Shown here: piece by piece, positions 2,338 to 13,627 of the stretch
Position numbering within the stretch: position 1 is the first letter of the stretch
Layout of the letters: each line of letters opens with the position of its first letter
From: Flavobacteriales bacterium
Lineage (GTDB): Bacteria > Bacteroidota > Bacteroidia > Flavobacteriales_E > Vicingaceae
Direction: 5' to 3'
DNA length: 64,000 bases
NCBI GenBank assembly: GCA_020853105.1
Contig: JADYZM010000039.1
Span: 1-64,000, forward strand
The notes under the pieces: model-generated
What the model was told of the DNA's origin: nothing
Database searches by the model: none
The model's input: only the letters and a program-made list of their open reading frames with translations
Program-made: the position numbers and the translations under genes

Positions 2338-4332
2338 TTATTTTTTTTGACTACAGTCAATTATTTGTGATTGTCTTCCAGTAGATTGGTATAATTTATT
2401 TAGGTGTTGGCATAAAACATTGTCCGATTTATCCAAATAATACGCTTTTTCAAAATATTCAATTGATTTTGTATAATTATCAGTTGCATCAATAGAATAC
2501 AAGTTTGCTAAACCGACAAAAACATTTTTAGGTTTTTGAGTGTAATCTGCTATTCTTTTTAAATCATCAATACCTCTTTCAACTATTTTATTCTTTATTA
2601 CAATTGAATTTAGCAAGTCGTATATTTTTACATAATCCGGATCAATTTCAATGGTTCTGATACAGTAGAAATATGCACTATCGATATTGTTAAGTTGTGA
2701 GTATGAGAAAGCGATGTTGTAGTGAGCCTCTAAATAAACAGGGTTATAAACAATTGCCTTTTTGCAATAGGTGATAGCTAAATTATAATCTCTAACATAA
2801 TTTACATAAACCGACCCAAGATTATTCCAGCTAGATGAGTATGTTGAGTCAATACGTGTTGCTTCTTTAAAATGATAGATCAGACGGTTAATGTCTTTTT
2901 GAATGTTTGGAGATGAAGGGTTATTCTTTATTTCAGTAATTACCATTGGATATAGTGTGTTTGCAATTAATGCATGTGTTTTTGCAGATTCTTGAGTATG
3001 TTCAATGTCTGTGGTATAAAGAGTCATATAGTCGTGCCAATCGTAGTTTCTAGCAATTGTTCTTCCTGAATAAAGAACTAAAATTACAAGAACTGTAATC
3101 AAGAAGTTACCAGATAATTTTGAGTTTGCATTTGCCAATGCAATATCAATTTTAAAAAGCTTAAATAAAATTACAGCAAACACAATACAAAACCCTAAAG
3201 AAAAAGCATAAGAAAAGCGGTCAGCAACAATACCAACTATTGGGAAAAAGACATTTATAACACCTAGCATTATACCAAACCACAATACAATGCCTATTCC
3301 AATTGCATCACGTTTATATAATTTGAACATCCCATATATGCCCATTGGAATAAAAAATAAAATTGCTGCCCAAACTCTCCAATAGGATAAATCAGCCATT
3401 GGAATTTGATTATACCCGTAATAGCAGGACATTTTAATCGGATAAAAGAGCATTTCCAGATAAAACCAAGAGCAATACAGCCCAACTAATATTCTATCTT
3501 TAAAAGTACCTTGAAAAAACAAGGGATTTTCAAAAAACATGAAAGTTCGAGTAGCTTTTCCGGATAATAACCCTCGCTTAATTAAAATTGAAGCAATAAA
3601 AATAACAACCAAAGACAAAAGAACAATTCCAATTTTTTTATAATTGGCTCTTAAATAATATAAGACAGCAGGTGCTACACCTATTATCATAATTGCATTA
3701 CGTTTAGAATATAATGCAAAAAAAACAGCTAATGCACCAAATAATAGATATTTATATTGGTTTGTTTCTGAAAAACGTATGTACCATATTAAAGCTAGGA
3801 TAATTCCTAAAAACACAAACAATTCGTCTCTACTTTTTATATTTGAAACAGCTTCGGTATGAATGGGATGAACAAAAAACAACAAAGTAACGATAAGAGG
3901 CAGTATTAAGCTATTATTTTTAAATAATAAACACAGAAATTTATAAAGAAAAATACATGATACGATATACACAAAGAGATTTATAAAATGACTCACATTG
4001 GCTTGAGTCAATTTGTCTTTTCTTTGTTTTTCTTTAATGGTCTGGCTTGATGGTAATTTTCCGAAAAATTGTTTTTCTATAGCAAAAGATAAAGTAACCA
4101 TTGGTCGGTATTCGTATTCTTGCTTACTGTCTTTTGCATATCTTGATGTGAAAATTTCGGGTATGGCTTTTAGCCCTTTTTCCACAATTTTGTTACCTTC
4201 TACAACGATGTTGTCGTCCAAAGCATATTCGTTATTTAAACTATTACCATAAATAATAAACGACAATAAAACGATGAAGAAATAAATCTTTTTTGGCGTG
4301 AAATTTTTCAAGTCTAGTGTCATTTTATTCAT
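2338..4332 (-). CDS. TMTC-like multi-pass membrane protein with C-terminal TPR repeats (GT-C glycosyltransferase-like)
   Basis: 664 aa; ALDDN near N-terminus, HPIHTEAVSNIKSRDELF motif strongly resembling TMTC family, many TM segments, TPR-like C-terminal third. Confidence 0.8.
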   Translation of the reverse strand: MNKMTLDLKNFTPKKIYFFIVLLSFIIYGNSLNNEYALDDNIVVEGNKIVEKGLKAIPEIFTSRYAKDSKQEYEYRPMVTLSFAIEKQFFGKLPSSQTIKEKQRKDKLTQANVSHFINLFVYIVSCIFLYKFLCLLFKNNSLILPLIVTLLFFVHPIHTEAVSNIKSRDELFVFLGIILALIWYIRFSETNQYKYLLFGALAVFFALYSKRNAIMIIGVAPAVLYYLRANYKKIGIVLLSLVVIFIASILIKRGLLSGKATRTFMFFENPLFFQGTFKDRILVGLYCSWFYLEMLFYPIKMSCYYGYNQIPMADLSYWRVWAAILFFIPMGIYGMFKLYKRDAIGIGIVLWFGIMLGVINVFFPIVGIVADRFSYAFSLGFCIVFAVILFKLFKIDIALANANSKLSGNFLITVLVILVLYSGRTIARNYDWHDYMTLYTTDIEHTQESAKTHALIANTLYPMVITEIKNNPSSPNIQKDINRLIYHFKEATRIDSTYSSSWNNLGSVYVNYVRDYNLAITYCKKAIVYNPVYLEAHYNIAFSYSQLNNIDSAYFYCIRTIEIDPDYVKIYDLLNSIVIKNKIVERGIDDLKRIADYTQKPKNVFVGLANLYSIDATDNYTKSIEYFEKAYYLDKSDNVLCQHLNKLYQSTGRQSQIIDCSQKK

Positions 4333-4449: not shown

Positions 4450-5568
4450 ATGCTTCATAACAAAAGTATAGAAGAAATTGAAAAACTACCCCTATTTTTT
4501 ATTGTGGGATACCCTCGCTCGGGAACTACTCTTTTGCAGCAAATTCTAGATTCAAATCCAGAGGTAATTATTCCGTTAGAAGCTCGATTTATTACTCTTT
4601 TAAAAGTAAAATATTTTAAGAAAAAAAAATGGGAAGAAAAAGATTTATTAGAATTTATTGATGACCTTTATTTAGTTGACAAACAATTTACGCTTTATTG
4701 GAAAGTGGAGAAACAAATTCTTACCTCACAAATCTTATCCATACCAAATGAAAAAATTTCTTTTACCCTATTGTGCAAATTAGTATATCTGAATTATAAA
4801 GGTCCGTATAAAAAGGATGTAATAAAATTTATTGGCGATAAAAATCCACTCAATTCTATTTTAATTCATGAGTTGATAGAGATGTTTCCAGACACCAAGT
4901 TTATTCATTTGATTAGGGATTACCGAGCTAATATCTTATCTAAAAAAAAGTGGTTTATCAGGTCTAACATATTTGAATTATCAATAACCTGGTTAAAGTA
5001 TAACATTATTATAGAAGAAAATAGTAAAAAGTATCCGAATAATTTTTTGCTTCTCAAATATGAAAATTTAGTTGAAAACCCTGAAAAATATGTAAAAGAA
5101 GTTACCGACTTTTTGGGGATAGAATTTTCGAAAAAAATGTTAGATACACATAATGTATTAAATCAGTCTATAAAATCAAATACTGATGAGTTTTTAGAAG
5201 AAAAAAAATTGACTGAATCATTACATTATAATCTATTAAATCCTATCAATACATCTCGTGTCGAGAGCTGGAAAAACGAATTGAGTGAAAGGGAAATCCG
5301 CATTGCAGATTACGTTGCAGGCAATTACGCAACAAAGCATGGATATGTTCCTAAATTCAAAACAAGTTCATTAGAATTCTATTTGAAAAGTAAATTTTTA
5401 CTCGTTTATGTGAGTATTATAATTAGACTGGTTCAGATGTATTATAAATCTCCTTTTTGGATGAGAGCTTTAACAAGAAATATCTCTTTGTTTTTATATC
5501 GAACTTTTGGCTATTCGAATACACTTAATCCTGAAATTCGAGAGACGGTTCGAAAGGATATCAAGTAA
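4450..5568 (+). CDS. Sulfotransferase family protein
   Basis: PAPS-binding 5' loop FIVGYPRSGTTLLQQILDSNPEV and downstream FIHLIRDYRANILS. Confidence 0.85.
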   Translation: MLHNKSIEEIEKLPLFFIVGYPRSGTTLLQQILDSNPEVIIPLEARFITLLKVKYFKKKKWEEKDLLEFIDDLYLVDKQFTLYWKVEKQILTSQILSIPNEKISFTLLCKLVYLNYKGPYKKDVIKFIGDKNPLNSILIHELIEMFPDTKFIHLIRDYRANILSKKKWFIRSNIFELSITWLKYNIIIEENSKKYPNNFLLLKYENLVENPEKYVKEVTDFLGIEFSKKMLDTHNVLNQSIKSNTDEFLEEKKLTESLHYNLLNPINTSRVESWKNELSEREIRIADYVAGNYATKHGYVPKFKTSSLEFYLKSKFLLVYVSIIIRLVQMYYKSPFWMRALTRNISLFLYRTFGYSNTLNPEIRETVRKDIK

Positions 5569-6250
5569 TGGTTCTTTTGTTAATTTTTAATACCTTTTCC
5601 ACCAAATCTTTTTGAAATTCTGGCAGAAATGGGAAAATTCTTTTCAGTTCTTCATCTGGTGTATCATCAAAACTAAAGTTAGAAAGATTCAATAGGCTAA
5701 AATCTCCGGTTTCATTGCCAATAATTTTTCTATATCCTTCCGACTTTTTCAAGTATTTATCTTTTGATAGAGTGAGATAGAAAAAATCTGAGTCTTCAGA
5801 TGTAACTTCATAACCAAGCAACTTGTTAAAATTTAACGCTTTAGTGTTTGATTTAATTACTTTAATTTGGTTTGAGATGAAATCATTGATTAAAAAAGAA
5901 AAGTCAAGCGTAATTATCGAAACCATTACAGGAAGAAGAGTTCCCAAATATTTCTCTTCCCAAATAAAAAACCCGCCTTCTGATGTCTTGGATTTATTAT
6001 CAATATCTTTTCCATTGATTAATCCGATTTTACTTCCCTGAAAATGAATTACAAAATAGAAACTTGTTTTTTCTCCTTTATAAATTGCGTTATTTAATTT
6101 TTCAAACCATATTTTTTGTTGTTCAGGAGTAATAATTTCTTTGTAATTCATTGTGTTTCTGATGTTTTCAGAATTTCTTTTTACACGAACTAATTCAATA
6201 TCATCTTCTTTCAAAGAAATCAATTGAATGCCGTACTTAGAAATTATCAT
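5561..6250 (-). CDS. GNAT family N-acetyl/acyltransferase
   Basis: RimJ/PseH-like layout: IQLISLKEDDIELVRVKRNSENIRN...; ...NTKALNFNKLLGYEV near the acyl-CoA fold end. Confidence 0.65.
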   Translation of the reverse strand: MIISKYGIQLISLKEDDIELVRVKRNSENIRNTMNYKEIITPEQQKIWFEKLNNAIYKGEKTSFYFVIHFQGSKIGLINGKDIDNKSKTSEGGFFIWEEKYLGTLLPVMVSIITLDFSFLINDFISNQIKVIKSNTKALNFNKLLGYEVTSEDSDFFYLTLSKDKYLKKSEGYRKIIGNETGDFSLLNLSNFSFDDTPDEELKRIFPFLPEFQKDLVEKVLKINKRTIT

Positions 6251-6259
6251 CAGTTGAAA

Positions 6260-7168
6260 TTATTTTAATACTTTTTGGATAGAATAAGTAGGTTTTTTGT
6301 TTTGTATTTGATACAATTTATACAAATATTGCCCGATAATTCCAAGGCATAATAATATTAAGCTGGTACTAAATAATATACTAACTATAAGTGAAGTATA
6401 TCCAAGTGGAACGTTATGAATAAGTTTTTTATAAATAAACCTCAACCAAAAAATAAAAGTAATTAATGAAGAAATTAGTCCTCCATAGGTCATAATTCTC
6501 AATGGAAGGGCAGAATAATTAATCAAAATATCAAAATAGAGGTAAATTAATTTCTTATAGGAATAACCTGATTTTCCTGATTTTCTAATTTCATGGTTTA
6601 CTGCAATTGTTTCAATATTATTGGTGTACCAAGTAAAAATAGTATCAAGAAATAAAAAATTACCGTGATGGTTTTTAGTAATTTCATCACAAATAGATTT
6701 TTTAATTAACCTGAAAGATGAACCACCTTTGGGTTGATCGGAAGTAAGTTTTATATAGGTAGTTCCTACATTTCGAATTGCAGAATGTTGTTTAACGTTA
6801 GGAATTCCATAAATAATATCCGCTTGAGTTTGAGTATAGCAATCAATCAGTTTTGCAATTTCTTCGGGAGGAAACTGTAAATCGTCGTCAATAGTTATGA
6901 TTAAATTACCTGATGAATGCGTAATTCCACATAATGTGGCGTTGTGTTGTCCATAATTTTTATTGAGTTTAATACCCCTGAGGTTAAAACTGCATTTTTT
7001 CTTTACCTCTTCGATGGTTTTCCAACTATTATCAGAGCTTCCATCATCAACCAAAATCAATTCAAAAGATTCGTTTCTAGTGTTAAAAAAATTTGCCAAA
7101 CGAGAAGTTAAGCCAACAATTGTTGATGAAGAGTTATAAACCGGTATGATAACTGAATAATTAATCAT
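6260..7168 (-). CDS. Glycosyltransferase family 2 (polyprenyl-phosphate glycosyltransferase type, two C-terminal TM helices)
   Basis: YSVIIPVYNSSSTI, ELILVDDGSSDNSW, ITIDDDLQFPPEEI, two C-terminal hydrophobic helices. Confidence 0.88.
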   Translation of the reverse strand: MINYSVIIPVYNSSSTIVGLTSRLANFFNTRNESFELILVDDGSSDNSWKTIEEVKKKCSFNLRGIKLNKNYGQHNATLCGITHSSGNLIITIDDDLQFPPEEIAKLIDCYTQTQADIIYGIPNVKQHSAIRNVGTTYIKLTSDQPKGGSSFRLIKKSICDEITKNHHGNFLFLDTIFTWYTNNIETIAVNHEIRKSGKSGYSYKKLIYLYFDILINYSALPLRIMTYGGLISSLITFIFWLRFIYKKLIHNVPLGYTSLIVSILFSTSLILLCLGIIGQYLYKLYQIQNKKPTYSIQKVLK

Positions 7169-7175
7169 AAATCTG

Positions 7176-7922
7176 TTAAGCTCCCGCCGTTAGTCCACCA
7201 TCAATTATAATATTTGTGCCTGTAATCCATTTTGATGCGTCAGAAAGAAGAAATACTGCCAAATTTGCAACATCGGTAGTTTCTCCAAACCCTAAAGGAT
7301 AGGATTTTTCGTGTTCATCCATGGCTTCTTTTGAAATTGTTTCCTCTGCTCCGTCTAGTAGGGGCGTTTTAACCATACCAGGATTTATGGTATTTGCTCT
7401 AATTTTTTGATGCGAAAATTCCAAAGCAATTGTTTTACAATATGTGTCTAAAGCGGCTTTGGCTCCGGCATATAACGTTCCTCCTTTAAAAGGAAATTTG
7501 CTAGCTAATGAAGAAATAAAAACGATAGAGGAATTTGGAATTATTTTTTTGTTTTTAAACAATTTATCTAATAGAAAAACAGGGATTGTGTAATTGATAT
7601 CGAATACAGAATCATAGTTTTTCTTATCAATATATTTTATAGGTATGTGTTTGGTTATTCCTGCAGAATAGACAATTCCATTGATTTTTGGACAATTGTT
7701 TATCACATCTTCGAGTTGAGTATATAAATCGGCAACAATTATTTGATGTCCTTCTCCTTCAAGTTTTGCAAACACTTCATTAAGTTTATCTTTATTTCTA
7801 CCACAAACAACAACAACTCCGCCCAATTTGGAAATTGAAATTGCTGTTTGTGCACCAATTCCTGAAGAGGCTCCAGTAACCAAATATGTTTTGCCATTTA
7901 GGCTGAAAGGATTTGAATTCAT
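7176..7922 (-). CDS. Short-chain dehydrogenase/reductase (3-oxoacyl-ACP reductase-like)
   Basis: TGASSGIGAQ nucleotide-binding motif, YAGAK catalytic YxxxK, NPGMVKTP, IIIDGGLTAG C-terminus. Confidence 0.88.
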   Translation of the reverse strand: MNSNPFSLNGKTYLVTGASSGIGAQTAISISKLGGVVVVCGRNKDKLNEVFAKLEGEGHQIIVADLYTQLEDVINNCPKINGIVYSAGITKHIPIKYIDKKNYDSVFDINYTIPVFLLDKLFKNKKIIPNSSIVFISSLASKFPFKGGTLYAGAKAALDTYCKTIALEFSHQKIRANTINPGMVKTPLLDGAEETISKEAMDEHEKSYPLGFGETTDVANLAVFLLSDASKWITGTNIIIDGGLTAGA

Positions 7923-8977
7923 TCTACTTCAATTATTTCAGGACATACAATTTTATCAGTGGAAAAACTAACTACCCCCCAAGACAAACCTACACCAAAA
8001 CCGGCAATTAGAAACTTTACTTTTTCAGTAATTAGTTTATTTCTAAGCTCAGAAACTATAGTTAAAGGAATTGAGGCAGAGCTTGTGTTCCCATATTTTG
8101 CAAGCGTATAAGGAACTTTCTCCTTTTCAAATCCAATTTTTTTACGAATAGTTTCATTCATCAATAGATTGGCTTGATGCATAACAAAATAGTCATACGA
8201 GTTGTTATTTGAATTTGTTTTCTCAAAAAATTCTAGAATGGATTTTGGAACTTCATCTATGGAGAAATTGAAAATTTCAAATCCGTTTAAAGCAGTATTT
8301 AATGGCGACCTAAAGATGCCGGGTAGAAATTCTATTTCGTCAAAAGATTCTTTATTTGCATGATTTCTCAAGCCTCCATGAGGTATTATTATTGAATCAA
8401 ATTTAGACCCATCGGTACCTAAATTATAGTTAAATTTTTCTGCATTTTCATCATATTCTATTGCTGTAACGGTAGCAGCATCTCCAAATAAAGGATAAGT
8501 TGTTTTGTCTTTATAATTACAAGAAACCAAAGAAATGTCACCGACCATCAACAATCCTTTTTTGAATCCGCCAGATGAAATCATACTATTTATAACCGAA
8601 AGTCCATATACATAACCGGAACAACCTAATCCAATATCAAGTGCAACAGCTGATTTTTCTAATCCCAATCTGTCTTGTAAAATACATGCGGTTGAGGGTA
8701 AAAAATAGTCTTTGGACTGAGATACAAAAATTAATATATCAATTTCTTTTTTATCCCATTTTAAATCAGATATAAGCACTTTAGCCGCTTCAAAACACAA
8801 ATCAGAAGTTGCAATATGTTTGGGAGCTCTTCTTTTCTTTTCAACTCCAATTGTTTTAATTAGCATCTTTCTTTCAGATTCAGAAAGGTGTTCGTAGTCC
8901 CAATTTGAGATTTCTTCTTTTGGGACTGCTGCAGCAATTCCTTTAATTGTAGTATGGAGTGTAGAAAAAAAAGCCAT
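7919..8977 (-). CDS. 3-oxoacyl-ACP synthase III family protein (KAS III)
   Basis: Catalytic Cys in DIGLGCSGYVYGLSV, His in YFVMHQANLLMNE, Asn in YGNTSSASIPLT. Confidence 0.9.
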   Translation of the reverse strand: MAFFSTLHTTIKGIAAAVPKEEISNWDYEHLSESERKMLIKTIGVEKKRRAPKHIATSDLCFEAAKVLISDLKWDKKEIDILIFVSQSKDYFLPSTACILQDRLGLEKSAVALDIGLGCSGYVYGLSVINSMISSGGFKKGLLMVGDISLVSCNYKDKTTYPLFGDAATVTAIEYDENAEKFNYNLGTDGSKFDSIIIPHGGLRNHANKESFDEIEFLPGIFRSPLNTALNGFEIFNFSIDEVPKSILEFFEKTNSNNNSYDYFVMHQANLLMNETIRKKIGFEKEKVPYTLAKYGNTSSASIPLTIVSELRNKLITEKVKFLIAGFGVGLSWGVVSFSTDKIVCPEIIEVE

Positions 8978-9216
8978 TATTGTTCTTTTCGACTTTTTAT
9001 TAAATTGTATAGCTCTTGAATGGTGCTCATTTGCCTTAAATCATTTCCGGTTATAGTAACACCAAATTCAGAATCAGCCATAGCAATAATAATAAGCCCA
9101 TGCATTGAACTCCAGTCTTTAATACTACGAAATGAAGTATCTGGAGTAAGAATAAAATCACTTTCAATATCAAATTCGGAAGTTAATATTTTAATAAACT
9201 CTTTTATATCAATCAT
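8977..9216 (-). CDS. Acyl carrier protein-like
   Basis: MIDIKEFIKILTSEFDIESDF...SFRSIKDWSSMHGLIIIAMADSEFGVTITGNDLRQMSTIQELYNLI; start set to ATG at 9214-9216 rather than the track's 9279 non-ATG start. Confidence 0.8.
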   Translation of the reverse strand: MIDIKEFIKILTSEFDIESDFILTPDTSFRSIKDWSSMHGLIIIAMADSEFGVTITGNDLRQMSTIQELYNLIKSRKEQ

Positions 9217-9224
9217 AATTGGTA

Positions 9225-10271
9225 TTAATTTACAGTTATTATAACTCCACCCCAAGAATATCCAATACCAAACCCACATAAGAGAAGTTTTGACTGGGGT
9301 GTTATTTTATTTGTTTCTAACATTTGCTTTAGTGCTATCGGTATTGATGCTGAAACCGTATTTCCAATATTACTAATATTATTAATAAATTTTTGTTCCG
9401 GTATTTTTATACGTTTTCGGATAAATTCAAGCATTTGAGCGTTGGCTTGATGAAGCACAAAATAATCAATTTTCTCAAATTCTGTTTTATTTTTTTCTAA
9501 AATTTGAGTTATCAATCCAGGTACTTTGCGGAGTGCAAATAAAAAAATTTGATGGCTGTTCATATACATCTTTCCTCTTCTTAATCCCCCGGGTATATGT
9601 TCGTATTGTTTGAGCCAATTGATATCGGCAGCATTTTTTGTTGCAGATCTTTCAACAAATAAATTTTTTTCTCCTTTTCCATCGGTTCCGAATACAAACT
9701 TTTCAATATCCCAGTTTAGGTACCCTTGTATTTTATTTTTAGAAATCAAGGTTGCAGCTGCAGCGTCAGAGAAAATTGCTCTTAAATCAATCTCTCCCGG
9801 ATGCACAACTTTGGAAGGTGTGTCAGCAGTAATTAGAAGTATATTTTCATATTCTTCAGCCATAATTAAAGCCTTTGCAACACTTAACCCATAGATATAC
9901 CCCGTACAACCATGAAGAATATCAATTGCTCCGCAATTTTCAGATAACCCTAAATCACTTTGCATAACGCAAGCAGTTGTTGGTCCTTTATAATCAAGAG
10001 CATCTGAAACAAAAATTATATAATCTATTTTTGATTTATCAAATTTCCATTCTTCAAATAATTTTTCAGCTGCTTTATTTCCTATATCCTTTGCAGTTTC
10101 TTCTATTTCAGCAGCAAATCGATTTTGAATACCACATTGTCTTATTATAATGTCACTTGTAATTTCATCAGGATTTGGGTTTTCCGAGTATTTATAATAG
10201 TCGGCAATAATCTCATCGTTTGAAAAAGATTTTTTTGGAAAATAATAACTTATGGCATTGAGGTAAATCAA
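9225..10271 (-). CDS. 3-oxoacyl-ACP synthase III family protein (second KAS III)
   Basis: Catalytic Cys in DILHGCTGYIYGLSV, His in YFVLHQANAQMLE, Asn in IGNTVSASIPIAL; apparent TTG start. Confidence 0.9.
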   Translation of the reverse strand: MIYLNAISYYFPKKSFSNDEIIADYYKYSENPNPDEITSDIIIRQCGIQNRFAAEIEETAKDIGNKAAEKLFEEWKFDKSKIDYIIFVSDALDYKGPTTACVMQSDLGLSENCGAIDILHGCTGYIYGLSVAKALIMAEEYENILLITADTPSKVVHPGEIDLRAIFSDAAAATLISKNKIQGYLNWDIEKFVFGTDGKGEKNLFVERSATKNAADINWLKQYEHIPGGLRRGKMYMNSHQIFLFALRKVPGLITQILEKNKTEFEKIDYFVLHQANAQMLEFIRKRIKIPEQKFINNISNIGNTVSASIPIALKQMLETNKITPQSKLLLCGFGIGYSWGGVIITVN

Positions 10272-10330
10272 AATTCAATTTTTTGTTAAAAATAATTCTT
10301 TGTATTTTATTTTAGTGAAGTTCATAAATA

Positions 10331-10356
10331 AAAAAAGAGGTTTGCACCTCTTTTTT
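10331..10356. terminator. Bidirectional intrinsic terminator hairpin
   Basis: aaaaaagaggt-ttgc-acctctttttt perfect inverted repeat with A/T tracts. Confidence 0.85.
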
Positions 10357-10378
10357 TTTAAATTTGCTTTTAATCGTG

Positions 10379-13300
10379 TTATCTTACAAGTGTTATCGTT
10401 CCTTTTAAATCGTATTGAACATCATCTAAACCTTTTGCTTTTATGATATAATAATAGGTTCCATCAGAAGCGGGAGATCCACCAATTTTTCCATCCCATG
10501 ATTTGTCTGGTGCGGTAATTTCAGCAACTTGTTTTCCCCAACGGTTAAAGATTACACAATTGAATTCTGAAATATGTTGATAGATAAATTCAAAAACATC
10601 ATTTTTATCATCACCATTAGGTGTAAAAATATTAGGGACAGTAAGGAATGAAGTACCGTGAACTTCAATTGTTATTTGAGTTGTAGCTGAACATTGACCG
10701 TTAAATGAAGTTAATGTAACAGTGTATGAACCTTGTGTTTCATATATAATGGTTGCTGTACTGTTTGTGCTAGTATCTCCTAATGATTGTCCATTACCAA
10801 AATTCCAGTAGGAACTATCAGCTACTCCTGTATTTGTAAATGTTACCGTTAATGGCATTTGTCCTGAAGTTGGATTTGCAGATAAAACAACAGAAACAGT
10901 ATATTCGTGAATATACACGCTTGAAGTAGATTGACATCCATTGGGTGAAATAGTTGTTAATGTGTAAGTTCCTCCTGAGTTAATTGTTGGAGTGAGGGTT
11001 GAGTCACCGGATACGATTTTTCCATCACTGGTTGACCAATAATAAATTGTTCCTGATGATGTCGTACCGGTTAAAACTAAACTTTCTCCTGTACATATAG
11101 TGTCTGCAGCTCCTGCATTAGCTCCAGGCTGAGTAAAGTCTGTAGAGACAGTTACCATGTCAGTTGCTACACAATTATTTGAAGTATTGGTTACAGTTAA
11201 AGTATAGGTTCCTGCACCATTTACTAGAGGAGAATTTGTATTAGAACCACTTACAATAGAACCTCCTGTCCAATTGTATGTAATTGTTGTACCAAAGGAA
11301 GAGGCTGTACCATCTAAATTAACCGTAGGTTGATTACAATTCAAAACCATATCATTCCCGGCATCAGCTGTAGGTTTTAATGTATCAACTGTTACAACAA
11401 CAATATCCGAACTTACACAATTATTATTTGGATTTGTAACTGTAAGCGTATAGGTTCCTGATGAATTAACAAAAGCAGTGTTTGAAGTAGCTCCATTTAC
11501 AATATTTCCATCATTTGTGCTCCACTGATAATTCATAGAAGGTGTTGAACCTGTACCATTTAAAGGAACTCCAGTCGTAATAGTTGTACAATTTAAAGAT
11601 GTATCTGCGCCAGCTGCTGCATTTGGTAGAATGGTATCAATTGTAATTGTAATAAAGTCAGAATTCATACAACCGTTTAGACTATCATAAACTGTAAGTG
11701 TATAAACTCCGGGTACTGTAACAATACCTATAATGCTATCTGCAATTACATTTCCAAGAGAATCAGTCCATTGGTAAGAATATTGCACTCCTGATGAAGA
11801 TCCAGTGCCATTTAACGTTATTGTATCAACAGTACAATTAATGGTTGCATTATTACCCGCATAAGCGATTGGTAAATTTCTATTGTCAGCAACTGTTATT
11901 GAATGAGCAGCCTGACATTGGTTAACTGTATCTTTTGCTATAAGCGTATATGTTCCAGGTGCATAAACAACAGGTGTTAAAGTTGAATCACCTGACACAA
12001 AAGAAGGTCCTGTCCAATAATAAAACAAGTTTGTACCGGAAACGAATCCACTCAATTGAATTGTATCTACTAAGCAAGTTAATGCTGTATCAGAGCCGGC
12101 GTTTGAAATTGGTAAGGAACTATCTTGGAAAATTTCAACAGTATCTGTACTAGAGCAGTTATTGCTGGTTACCGTAAGGATATATAATCCAGCCTGATTA
12201 ACTTGTGGTGTCAGTGTTGTTTGTCCAGAAACAATATTTCCACCAATTGTTGACCAACTGTAAGTTCCGGATAAAGAACTACTTCCGTTTAAGGTGACAA
12301 TTAAATTTTGACATGTGATAGTATCATTTAATCCAGCATTAACTACTGGATATACTATATCAAAGTTTATACAATTGGGTATAGCGTAATTTCCACACAA
12401 ATCTTTTACACTGCTACTGTCATTTGTTAAACAAAAAGTATATGTTCCTGCATCAGAAATTGGAGGATTAACATCAATAGAAAAATATCTGTCTTGAGAA
12501 GCTCCATTTGCACAATTCACTCCTTGAACTGCAGTAACAGTATGAGAGCCGCTTGGACCTGTAAGAGTAAAATCAGAAGCCAACATTCCTGCACAAAGAA
12601 CATTTTCTGTAAAAATAAAATCAATAGATGTTGTTCCACAATTAACAGCTCCGTTAACTGTTTGTATTGCCGGGGGGACATTATCGAAAATAGTAGCTGT
12701 TGAAGCTCCAAAATTTATGGTATATCCATTTAAAGATGTTGAATATTGACTAACATTAACTACATAAGTTTGACCTGCCTGAACAGCGATACAAGGATTA
12801 TTCTGACCTCCTGAGAGTCCATTTGGACCGGTATTTCCAGACAATCCCGAATAGTTGCAACTAACTTCCAAAGCACTGTTGTTATAAATATCAGCGCATG
12901 AATTGCTGGTTAAATTATAAACAGCCCAGTCGTAGTCATCACTAGCTTGATTTGGAACTATTGTGAAACACACATTTCCTGCTGTTTGTGTTGTGAATGT
13001 GTACCAAACATCATTTTTTTCTCCTGATTTTAAACACGATGGAGTAGCATTTATTTCATTTAAAATATTTCCTGTTCCTTGATAAGCATTTGTTTCTGAG
13101 TATGTGTTTTGACAAACCGGAATTGCTCCTAAACAATCTTGAACAGTTGGTGGTGGTGCTGCTACAGGTGCTGTAATGTTTAAGTTATATGAAAAGCAGG
13201 TTGGGGAAAGCCATTTATCTACTACTAAATAATAAGTAACGCCAGAGGTTACGAAAATATTTGTTAATGATTGGTTTCCTGTAGAAGAAGTTGAATTTGC

Positions 13301-13627
13301 AACACAAGTACCCCCTGTAGGACAACCTTGATATAAAAAGATTCCTACCCAACTAGATGAAGATGTAAGGGTTATTGTTATCAATCCTGAAGAAGTTGGT
13401 GTAAAGGCGTAAACAGTATTTTCGCCATCAAGATAGATTCCGTTACCACAAACTATAGTATTATTACCTGTATAAGTATTTCCCATACCGCAAGTTGACT
13501 GATTTGATGCAGAAAATGGTAATGTTATTGGCGAAGCTGCTGCTCCTGCACATGTTCCTGAACCTTGTGAATACGTTTTTGCTACTAAAATTCCAATACC
13601 AATAAATAGGGCAATTAACTTTTTCAT
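10379..13627 (-). CDS. Gliding motility-associated C-terminal domain protein (T9SS type B cargo) with tandem Ig/PKD-like modules
   Basis: Signal peptide; ~7 repeats of NAGSD..L.C....L.G......Y.W...G.I.SG...L.P.V...G.YTLTV; PKD-like segment; C-terminus NIFTPNGDDKNDVFEF...FNRWGKQV...WDGKIGGSPASDGTYYYIIKAKG...KGTITLVR. Confidence 0.92.
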   Translation of the reverse strand: MKKLIALFIGIGILVAKTYSQGSGTCAGAAASPITLPFSASNQSTCGMGNTYTGNNTIVCGNGIYLDGENTVYAFTPTSSGLITITLTSSSSWVGIFLYQGCPTGGTCVANSTSSTGNQSLTNIFVTSGVTYYLVVDKWLSPTCFSYNLNITAPVAAPPPTVQDCLGAIPVCQNTYSETNAYQGTGNILNEINATPSCLKSGEKNDVWYTFTTQTAGNVCFTIVPNQASDDYDWAVYNLTSNSCADIYNNSALEVSCNYSGLSGNTGPNGLSGGQNNPCIAVQAGQTYVVNVSQYSTSLNGYTINFGASTATIFDNVPPAIQTVNGAVNCGTTSIDFIFTENVLCAGMLASDFTLTGPSGSHTVTAVQGVNCANGASQDRYFSIDVNPPISDAGTYTFCLTNDSSSVKDLCGNYAIPNCINFDIVYPVVNAGLNDTITCQNLIVTLNGSSSLSGTYSWSTIGGNIVSGQTTLTPQVNQAGLYILTVTSNNCSSTDTVEIFQDSSLPISNAGSDTALTCLVDTIQLSGFVSGTNLFYYWTGPSFVSGDSTLTPVVYAPGTYTLIAKDTVNQCQAAHSITVADNRNLPIAYAGNNATINCTVDTITLNGTGSSSGVQYSYQWTDSLGNVIADSIIGIVTVPGVYTLTVYDSLNGCMNSDFITITIDTILPNAAAGADTSLNCTTITTGVPLNGTGSTPSMNYQWSTNDGNIVNGATSNTAFVNSSGTYTLTVTNPNNNCVSSDIVVVTVDTLKPTADAGNDMVLNCNQPTVNLDGTASSFGTTITYNWTGGSIVSGSNTNSPLVNGAGTYTLTVTNTSNNCVATDMVTVSTDFTQPGANAGAADTICTGESLVLTGTTSSGTIYYWSTSDGKIVSGDSTLTPTINSGGTYTLTTISPNGCQSTSSVYIHEYTVSVVLSANPTSGQMPLTVTFTNTGVADSSYWNFGNGQSLGDTSTNSTATIIYETQGSYTVTLTSFNGQCSATTQITIEVHGTSFLTVPNIFTPNGDDKNDVFEFIYQHISEFNCVIFNRWGKQVAEITAPDKSWDGKIGGSPASDGTYYYIIKAKGLDDVQYDLKGTITLVR

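Follow-up and report, generated by a model that had tools for sequence, protein, structure and literature searches.

Why would a bacterium keep two fatty acid-type condensing enzymes and a dedicated acyl carrier protein (ACP) in one operon with a glycosyltransferase and an acyltransferase resembling those that act on sugars? The question is raised by a minus-strand run of six genes (10271 to 5561) on contig JADYZM010000039.1 of a Flavobacteriales bacterium (assembly GCA_020853105.1), the first 64,000 nucleotides of which were analysed and are here called the window. In transcription order, the genes encode a β-ketoacyl-ACP synthase III (KAS III-A), the ACP, a second such synthase (KAS III-B), a FabG-like short-chain dehydrogenase/reductase (SDR), a family 2 glycosyltransferase (GT2) and a GNAT-type N-acyltransferase. 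With all functions assigned by homology, we consider it fairly probable that together they form a self-contained module for making an acylated amino sugar donor. A preliminary description had proposed a hydroxyacyl mini-pathway, transfer of its product to an amino sugar by the GNAT, and an O-antigen setting; the first two proposals agree with the present analysis, and the third is not supported by it.

A six-gene block conserved across Bacteroidota

The genes are as tightly packed as had been described, with overlaps or gaps under 10 nt in the open reading frame coordinates. The longer ACP frame spans 8977-9279, but homologues begin at a MIDIKEF-like Met, and translation probably starts at the corresponding ATG at 9216 ('MIDIKEF'), 8 nt past the stop of KAS III-A (9225-10271). 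With the ACP thus placed at 8977-9216, each junction is an overlap of 1 or 4 nt or a gap of 7 to 9 nt. The stop of the ACP and the start of KAS III-B (7919-8977) have base 8977 in common, and KAS III-B overlaps the SDR (7176-7922) by 4 nt (ATGA), both as previously noted. Scans against Pfam- and NCBIfam-type models agree with the earlier assignment of every frame: two KAS III enzymes, an ACP (a weak but clear match), a FabG-like SDR, a GT2 and a GNAT.

With KAS III-B as the query (E<=1e-60), carriers make up 69 of 395 class-level genomes, sampled at one genome per species and in part metagenome-assembled, and 55 of the 339 that are of high quality. A Flavobacteriaceae-centred search of 400 genomes found only four. 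The loci examined comprised sixty neighbourhoods and eight loci from named contigs, with duplicates removed. Complete six-gene loci number 36, this window included, and are spread across many Bacteroidota families; gene order is identical in 35 of them, the junctions have medians between -4 and 12 nt, and the grouping is therefore more than chance. A further 16 loci carry a four-gene form containing only the ACP, KAS III-B, the GT2 and the GNAT. The retention of the last two with the ACP and KAS III-B ties acyl synthesis to both. Flanking genes vary from locus to locus, and include ATP synthase genes (L004, from Aequorivita viscosa), electron-transport-type genes (L005, L006) and ribosomal genes (L051, L057, L065, L068). 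A constant block amid such differing flanks is what a movable, stand-alone element would show.

Condensing enzymes, carrier protein and the acyl chain

Both condensing enzymes contain KAS III domains (PF08541/PF08545) and the Cys-His-Asn triad that had been reported for them (Cys122-His274-Asn304 in KAS III-A, a protein of 348 aa with a TTG start). The triad is invariant in homologues, in 41 of 41 aligned KAS III-A and all 65 aligned KAS III-B sequences. The two enzymes share 32% identity and fall into separate tree groups (support 0.98 and 0.84) whose tips were labelled by profile score before the tree was built, and they thus represent an old pair rather than a recent duplication.

In FabH, Trp32 and Arg249 contact coenzyme A (CoA) and ACP. 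By the numbering of an E. coli FabH sequence that was checked only by its length and by the expected residues at 32, 87, 112, 151, 244 and 274, both are absent from the 41 KAS III-A and 59 KAS III-B sequences aligned, whereas the genome's own FabH has both. Primer handling by the two enzymes therefore probably differs from that of FabH. The position of the FabH Phe87 gate is occupied by a small residue (Gly, Thr or Ala) in 37 of 41 KAS III-A sequences and by Leu, Ile or Val in 58 of 59 KAS III-B sequences; all 59 of the latter also have Gln at 81. We infer that KAS III-B would use a small primer, and KAS III-A a larger, already reduced chain.

In the scheme that we propose, KAS III-B would act as the first condensing enzyme, joining malonate, carried on the dedicated ACP, to a two-carbon (or other short) primer. 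The SDR, which keeps the TGxxxGIG and YxxxK motifs seen earlier (as TGASSGIG and Y151xxxK155), would reduce the product. KAS III-A, the putative chain-extending enzyme, could then extend the chain once more, so that the ACP would end up bearing a 3-hydroxyacyl or 3,5-dihydroxyacyl group. Two condensations are thus possible, and an optional second round would be in keeping with the loss of KAS III-A and the SDR from the four-gene form.

The Ser of the carrier protein is invariant in 63 of 63 sequences, and 57 of them have S, N, G or T where an Asp usually precedes it. The window's ACP reads W-S-S-M in place of x-D-S-L, and the ACPs of stand-alone blocks have WSSM, WNSM or WGSM; the canonical WDSL is kept only by six O-antigen-type relatives. 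The genome was found to encode one phosphopantetheinyl transferase. The idea first put forward, a type II mini-pathway dedicated to a short hydroxyacyl group, is supported by a gene order like that of wfpC-D-E-F (PMC6519341) and by the GNAT, whose best match in the PDB is FdhC.

From amino sugar to surface acceptor

The GNAT (5561-6250) is the only protein of its kind in the genome. It matches the PseH model with an E of 1e-14, under that model's equivalog cut-off, and the FdhC match in the PDB has an E of 2e-7, with PseH found too. Its AlphaFold model (pLDDT 88) aligns with FdhC (5kta) and PseH (4ri1) in Foldseek at a probability of 1.0, and has an extra C-terminal helical tail. FdhC structure 5ktc contains CoA and the product 3-[(R)-3-hydroxybutanoylamino]-3,6-dideoxy-galactose, a match in sequence and fold that favours the earlier suggestion that the GNAT moves a hydroxyacyl group onto an amino sugar. 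Its predicted substrate is a nucleotide-linked amino sugar, which it would N-acylate. The GT2 (6260-7168), identified in the family scans as ArnC/GtrB-like, scores under the ArnC equivalog cut-off; residues 4-301 match ArnC (9hwj) end to end, including the C-terminal membrane part (E 4.5e-38), and it is presumably a polyprenyl-phosphate glycosyltransferase.

One gene away from the operon, at 2338-4332 on the minus strand, lies a gene for a TMTC-like GT-C transferase with C-terminal tetratricopeptide repeats (TPR). It is the sole PF08409 match in the genome, scoring 28.2 bits when the genome was searched (cut-off 27) and 24.0 bits when the protein itself was scanned. GT-C TMTC enzymes have been described by the motifs DD, YRP, R, K and (D/E)RxxY, with ArnT as the closest known structure (PMC7801869). 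These are conserved in the protein and its relatives as EL1 DD, YRP, EL2 R, EL3 K and EL5 (D/E)RxxY; the EL3 metal Glu is variable (Arg in this window), and EL4 DW occurs in some members only. Profile searches of the PDB returned no match for the membrane part, and only TPR proteins when the TPR part was included. The AlphaFold model was poor (mean pLDDT 60) and was left out of the fold search.

By clustering, TMTC-like GT-C proteins with TPR occur within ~10 kb of KAS III-B in 28 loci; by a bit-score cut over the same distance, they accompany 23 of the 36 full loci, this window included, and 3 of the 16 four-gene loci. Conversely, when the same 395 genomes were scanned, 19 of the 30 top-scoring TMTC relatives found beyond this genome lay <=15 kb from KAS III-B; with a single block in a genome of 3 to 4 Mb, chance would give ~0.3. 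Because that search started from a neighbour of the block, the proximity speaks for this TMTC subfamily travelling with the block and not for all TMTC proteins. The TMTC link is a statistical one.

These partners, a steady ArnC-like GT2 and often a TMTC-like GT-C, point to a monosaccharide donor on undecaprenyl phosphate and not to an O-antigen repeat unit. In the donor module as we infer it, from substrates and order of steps to product, other enzymes of the cell would supply a nucleotide-linked amino sugar, the GNAT would acylate its amine with the ACP-bound chain, and the GT2 would attach the product to undecaprenyl phosphate. Once the lipid-linked sugar had been flipped, a GT-C of TMTC/ArnT type, such as that at 2338-4332, may transfer the sugar to a surface acceptor, whether protein, lipopolysaccharide or another glycolipid. 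We raise more tentatively, as a possibility that we do not favour at present, that this is a new Bacteroidota surface-modification system, in which undecaprenyl phosphate carries single amino sugars bearing an ACP-made hydroxyacyl group, and a bacterial GT-C of TMTC type delivers them to exported proteins, such as those secreted by the type IX route. No combination of a block of this type with ArnC-like and TMTC-like enzymes was found in the literature searched.

Several observations weigh against the donor module. The primer is left unsure by the loss of the CoA-stacking Trp32 and of Arg249, no residue among those tested fixes the chain length, and the dedicated ACP lacks the usual Asp ahead of its Ser. 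Spermidine acetyltransferase folds score about equally against the GNAT model in Foldseek. A TMTC gene is not found nearby in 13 of the 36 full and 13 of the 16 four-gene loci. Of the partners expected to accompany the KASIII-ACP-KASIII-SDR genes across Bacteroidota, the GNAT does travel with them (36 loci), and no amino-sugar gene lies within the conserved block. Nucleotide amino-sugar genes occur on other contigs of this genome. Contig 87 (C87) carries PglF-like, PglC-like and PseC/PglE-like genes, and on contig C4 a DegT aminotransferase adjoins nucleotide-sugar dehydrogenase-like genes. A PglF-like dehydratase of the C87 type is absent (E<=1e-40) from three carriers, G399 and the near-complete G252 and G340; G062, G083 and G085, also included in that search, do not carry the block. 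Because these three carriers lack PglF at that threshold, we rejected a bacillosamine-type sugar (UDP-Qui2NAc4N) as the general acceptor. DegT aminotransferases were found in each of 28 genomes, which apart from a few such as G072 carry the block; as DegT is common to most genomes, this test is weak. On C87, a DegT aminotransferase also lies beside a small protein that, by eye, resembles a sugar 3,4-ketoisomerase (L119, 12945-14391); this pair could make a 3-amino sugar like that acylated by FdhC.

The same contig offers the best-surviving alternative, an O-antigen side-chain pathway as in Flavobacterium psychrophilum, in which the GNAT product would enter the cytoplasmic O-polysaccharide assembly of C87 and the GT2 would serve a separate step. 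The C87 cluster has a dehydratase, initiating transferase and aminotransferase and no PglD, as if the acyl step came from elsewhere (PglD_N was not found in this genome other than inside the PglF-like protein), and wfpC-F show the same order of ketoacyl synthase, ACP, ketoacyl synthase and ketoreductase (PMC6519341). We nevertheless judge it unlikely. The block is unlinked to O-antigen genes here and in the other six-gene loci, with no sugar-nucleotide gene inside it, and G252, G340 and G399 have it without PglF. The relatives that are of O-antigen type (L091, L092, L097, L099, L101, L102) lack the GT2 and GNAT, have a WDSL ACP and, by clustering, lie close to PglD-like or DegT-like genes.

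Somewhat less probable again is a lipid-modifying pathway, in which lipid A, an amino-lipid or another membrane lipid would receive the acyl chain or sugar, in the way that ArnC/ArnT deliver aminoarabinose. The ArnC-like GT2 is compatible with this, as are recurrent OlsC/LpxO-like acyl hydroxylases (22 loci) and MBOAT genes (8 loci). However, the conserved block contains no lipid-specific gene, TMTC relatives with TPR have protein acceptors in animals, and surface proteins of the type IX secretion system (T9SS) recur too (17 loci). A small polyketide or long-chain lipid pathway of dialkylresorcinol, flexirubin or aryl polyene type, with no sugar link, would suit a KAS III pair with an ACP and SDR, but is highly improbable and was rejected given the weak DarB model matches (24-42 bits against a cut-off of 550), the missing partner genes (aromatase, cyclase, dehydratase or KAS II) and the linked GT2 and sugar-type GNAT. 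A defence role was looked for, and no sign of one was found.

The surroundings of the block show further recurrent genes, all counted within ~10 kb of KAS III-B. In this window a Sulfotransfer_3 sulfotransferase (4450-5568, plus strand) converges with the GNAT gene; genes of this kind recur in 19 other loci, and further sulfotransferase types appear as well. The OlsC/LpxO-like Fe/2-oxoglutarate hydroxylases (PF05118) accompany the six-gene form, in up to three copies (for example, L052:6363-7097 and L066:4843-7114), and none was seen beside the block in this window. The T9SS proteins counted above are of CHU_C/PKD type. Such proteins or their relatives occur on both flanks here, at 10379-13627 on the minus strand, upstream of the operon, and as an open frame at the left contig edge. 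A symmetric terminator-like hairpin (10330-10357) separates the operon from the former. Elsewhere, a protein of ~290 aa with no Pfam or NCBIfam match occurs in 16 loci (L071:4566-5501 and 15 others), often directly after the GNAT gene in four-gene loci; judged by eye, it is possibly a glycosyltransferase.

Comparison with known systems

If correct, the donor module would join short-chain acyl synthesis on ACP, polyprenyl-phosphate monosaccharide donors and TMTC-like transferases, so far seen apart. A review of Bacteroidota protein O-glycosylation describes the transferase, ligase and core machinery as undiscovered, and suggests homologues of eukaryotic O-mannosylation as leads (PMC12871550). 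A conserved, movable block with donor and transferase candidates makes that suggestion directly testable. We make no claim that the block is the source of the known Bacteroidota O-glycan.

By analogy, the proposed acyl chemistry has published precedents (PMC6519341, PMC3927599). The F. psychrophilum O-polysaccharide carries a 3,5-dihydroxyhexanoyl group, with the glycan determined by nuclear magnetic resonance and the function of the R-group genes wfpC-wfpG predicted (PMC6519341). Those genes likewise comprise two ketoacyl synthases, an ACP and a ketoreductase in the same order, and their predicted product is a 3,5-dihydroxyhexanoyl group destined for a 4-amino sugar (PMC6519341); the likeness is drawn from their description and from an order inferred from the gene letters. 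The wfp acyltransferase is a PglD homologue (hexapeptide), whereas that of this block is a GNAT; pglE and pglF share the O-antigen cluster to which the wfp genes belong, whereas this block stands outside any such cluster; and no ArnC-like GT2 is described for wfp. The Flavobacteriaceae-centred search found no identifiable wfp locus.

KAS III, ACP, reductase and acyltransferase are also combined in vioS/acp/vioR/vioB of Pseudomonas syringae and orfB-E of P. aeruginosa PAK, which lead to an N-(3-hydroxybutyryl) amino sugar that is used to glycosylate protein; deletion of vioR in P. syringae removes modified viosamine (PMC3927599). Unlike our block, the viosamine island has a single KAS III, a VioT that uses the dTDP sugar directly and an internal aminotransferase, vioA (PMC3927599). 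The Acinetobacter nosocomialis FdhC (5kta/5ktc), which transfers 3-hydroxybutanoyl to an amino sugar, shares the GNAT fold, yet at ~24% identity, with CoA in its crystal and without the C-terminal tail.

The later steps recall the aminoarabinose pathway, where an N-acyl (there formyl) amino sugar is put on undecaprenyl phosphate by an ArnC-type GT2 and then moved by a GT-C. Here the acyl group would be ACP-borne instead, the block has no deformylase, and the neighbouring GT-C is TMTC-like with TPR. That protein, in turn, resembles the O-mannosyltransferases TMTC1-4 in its GT-C membrane part with DD and YRP motifs and in its TPR tail, and differs from them in being bacterial and linked to an acyl-sugar block.

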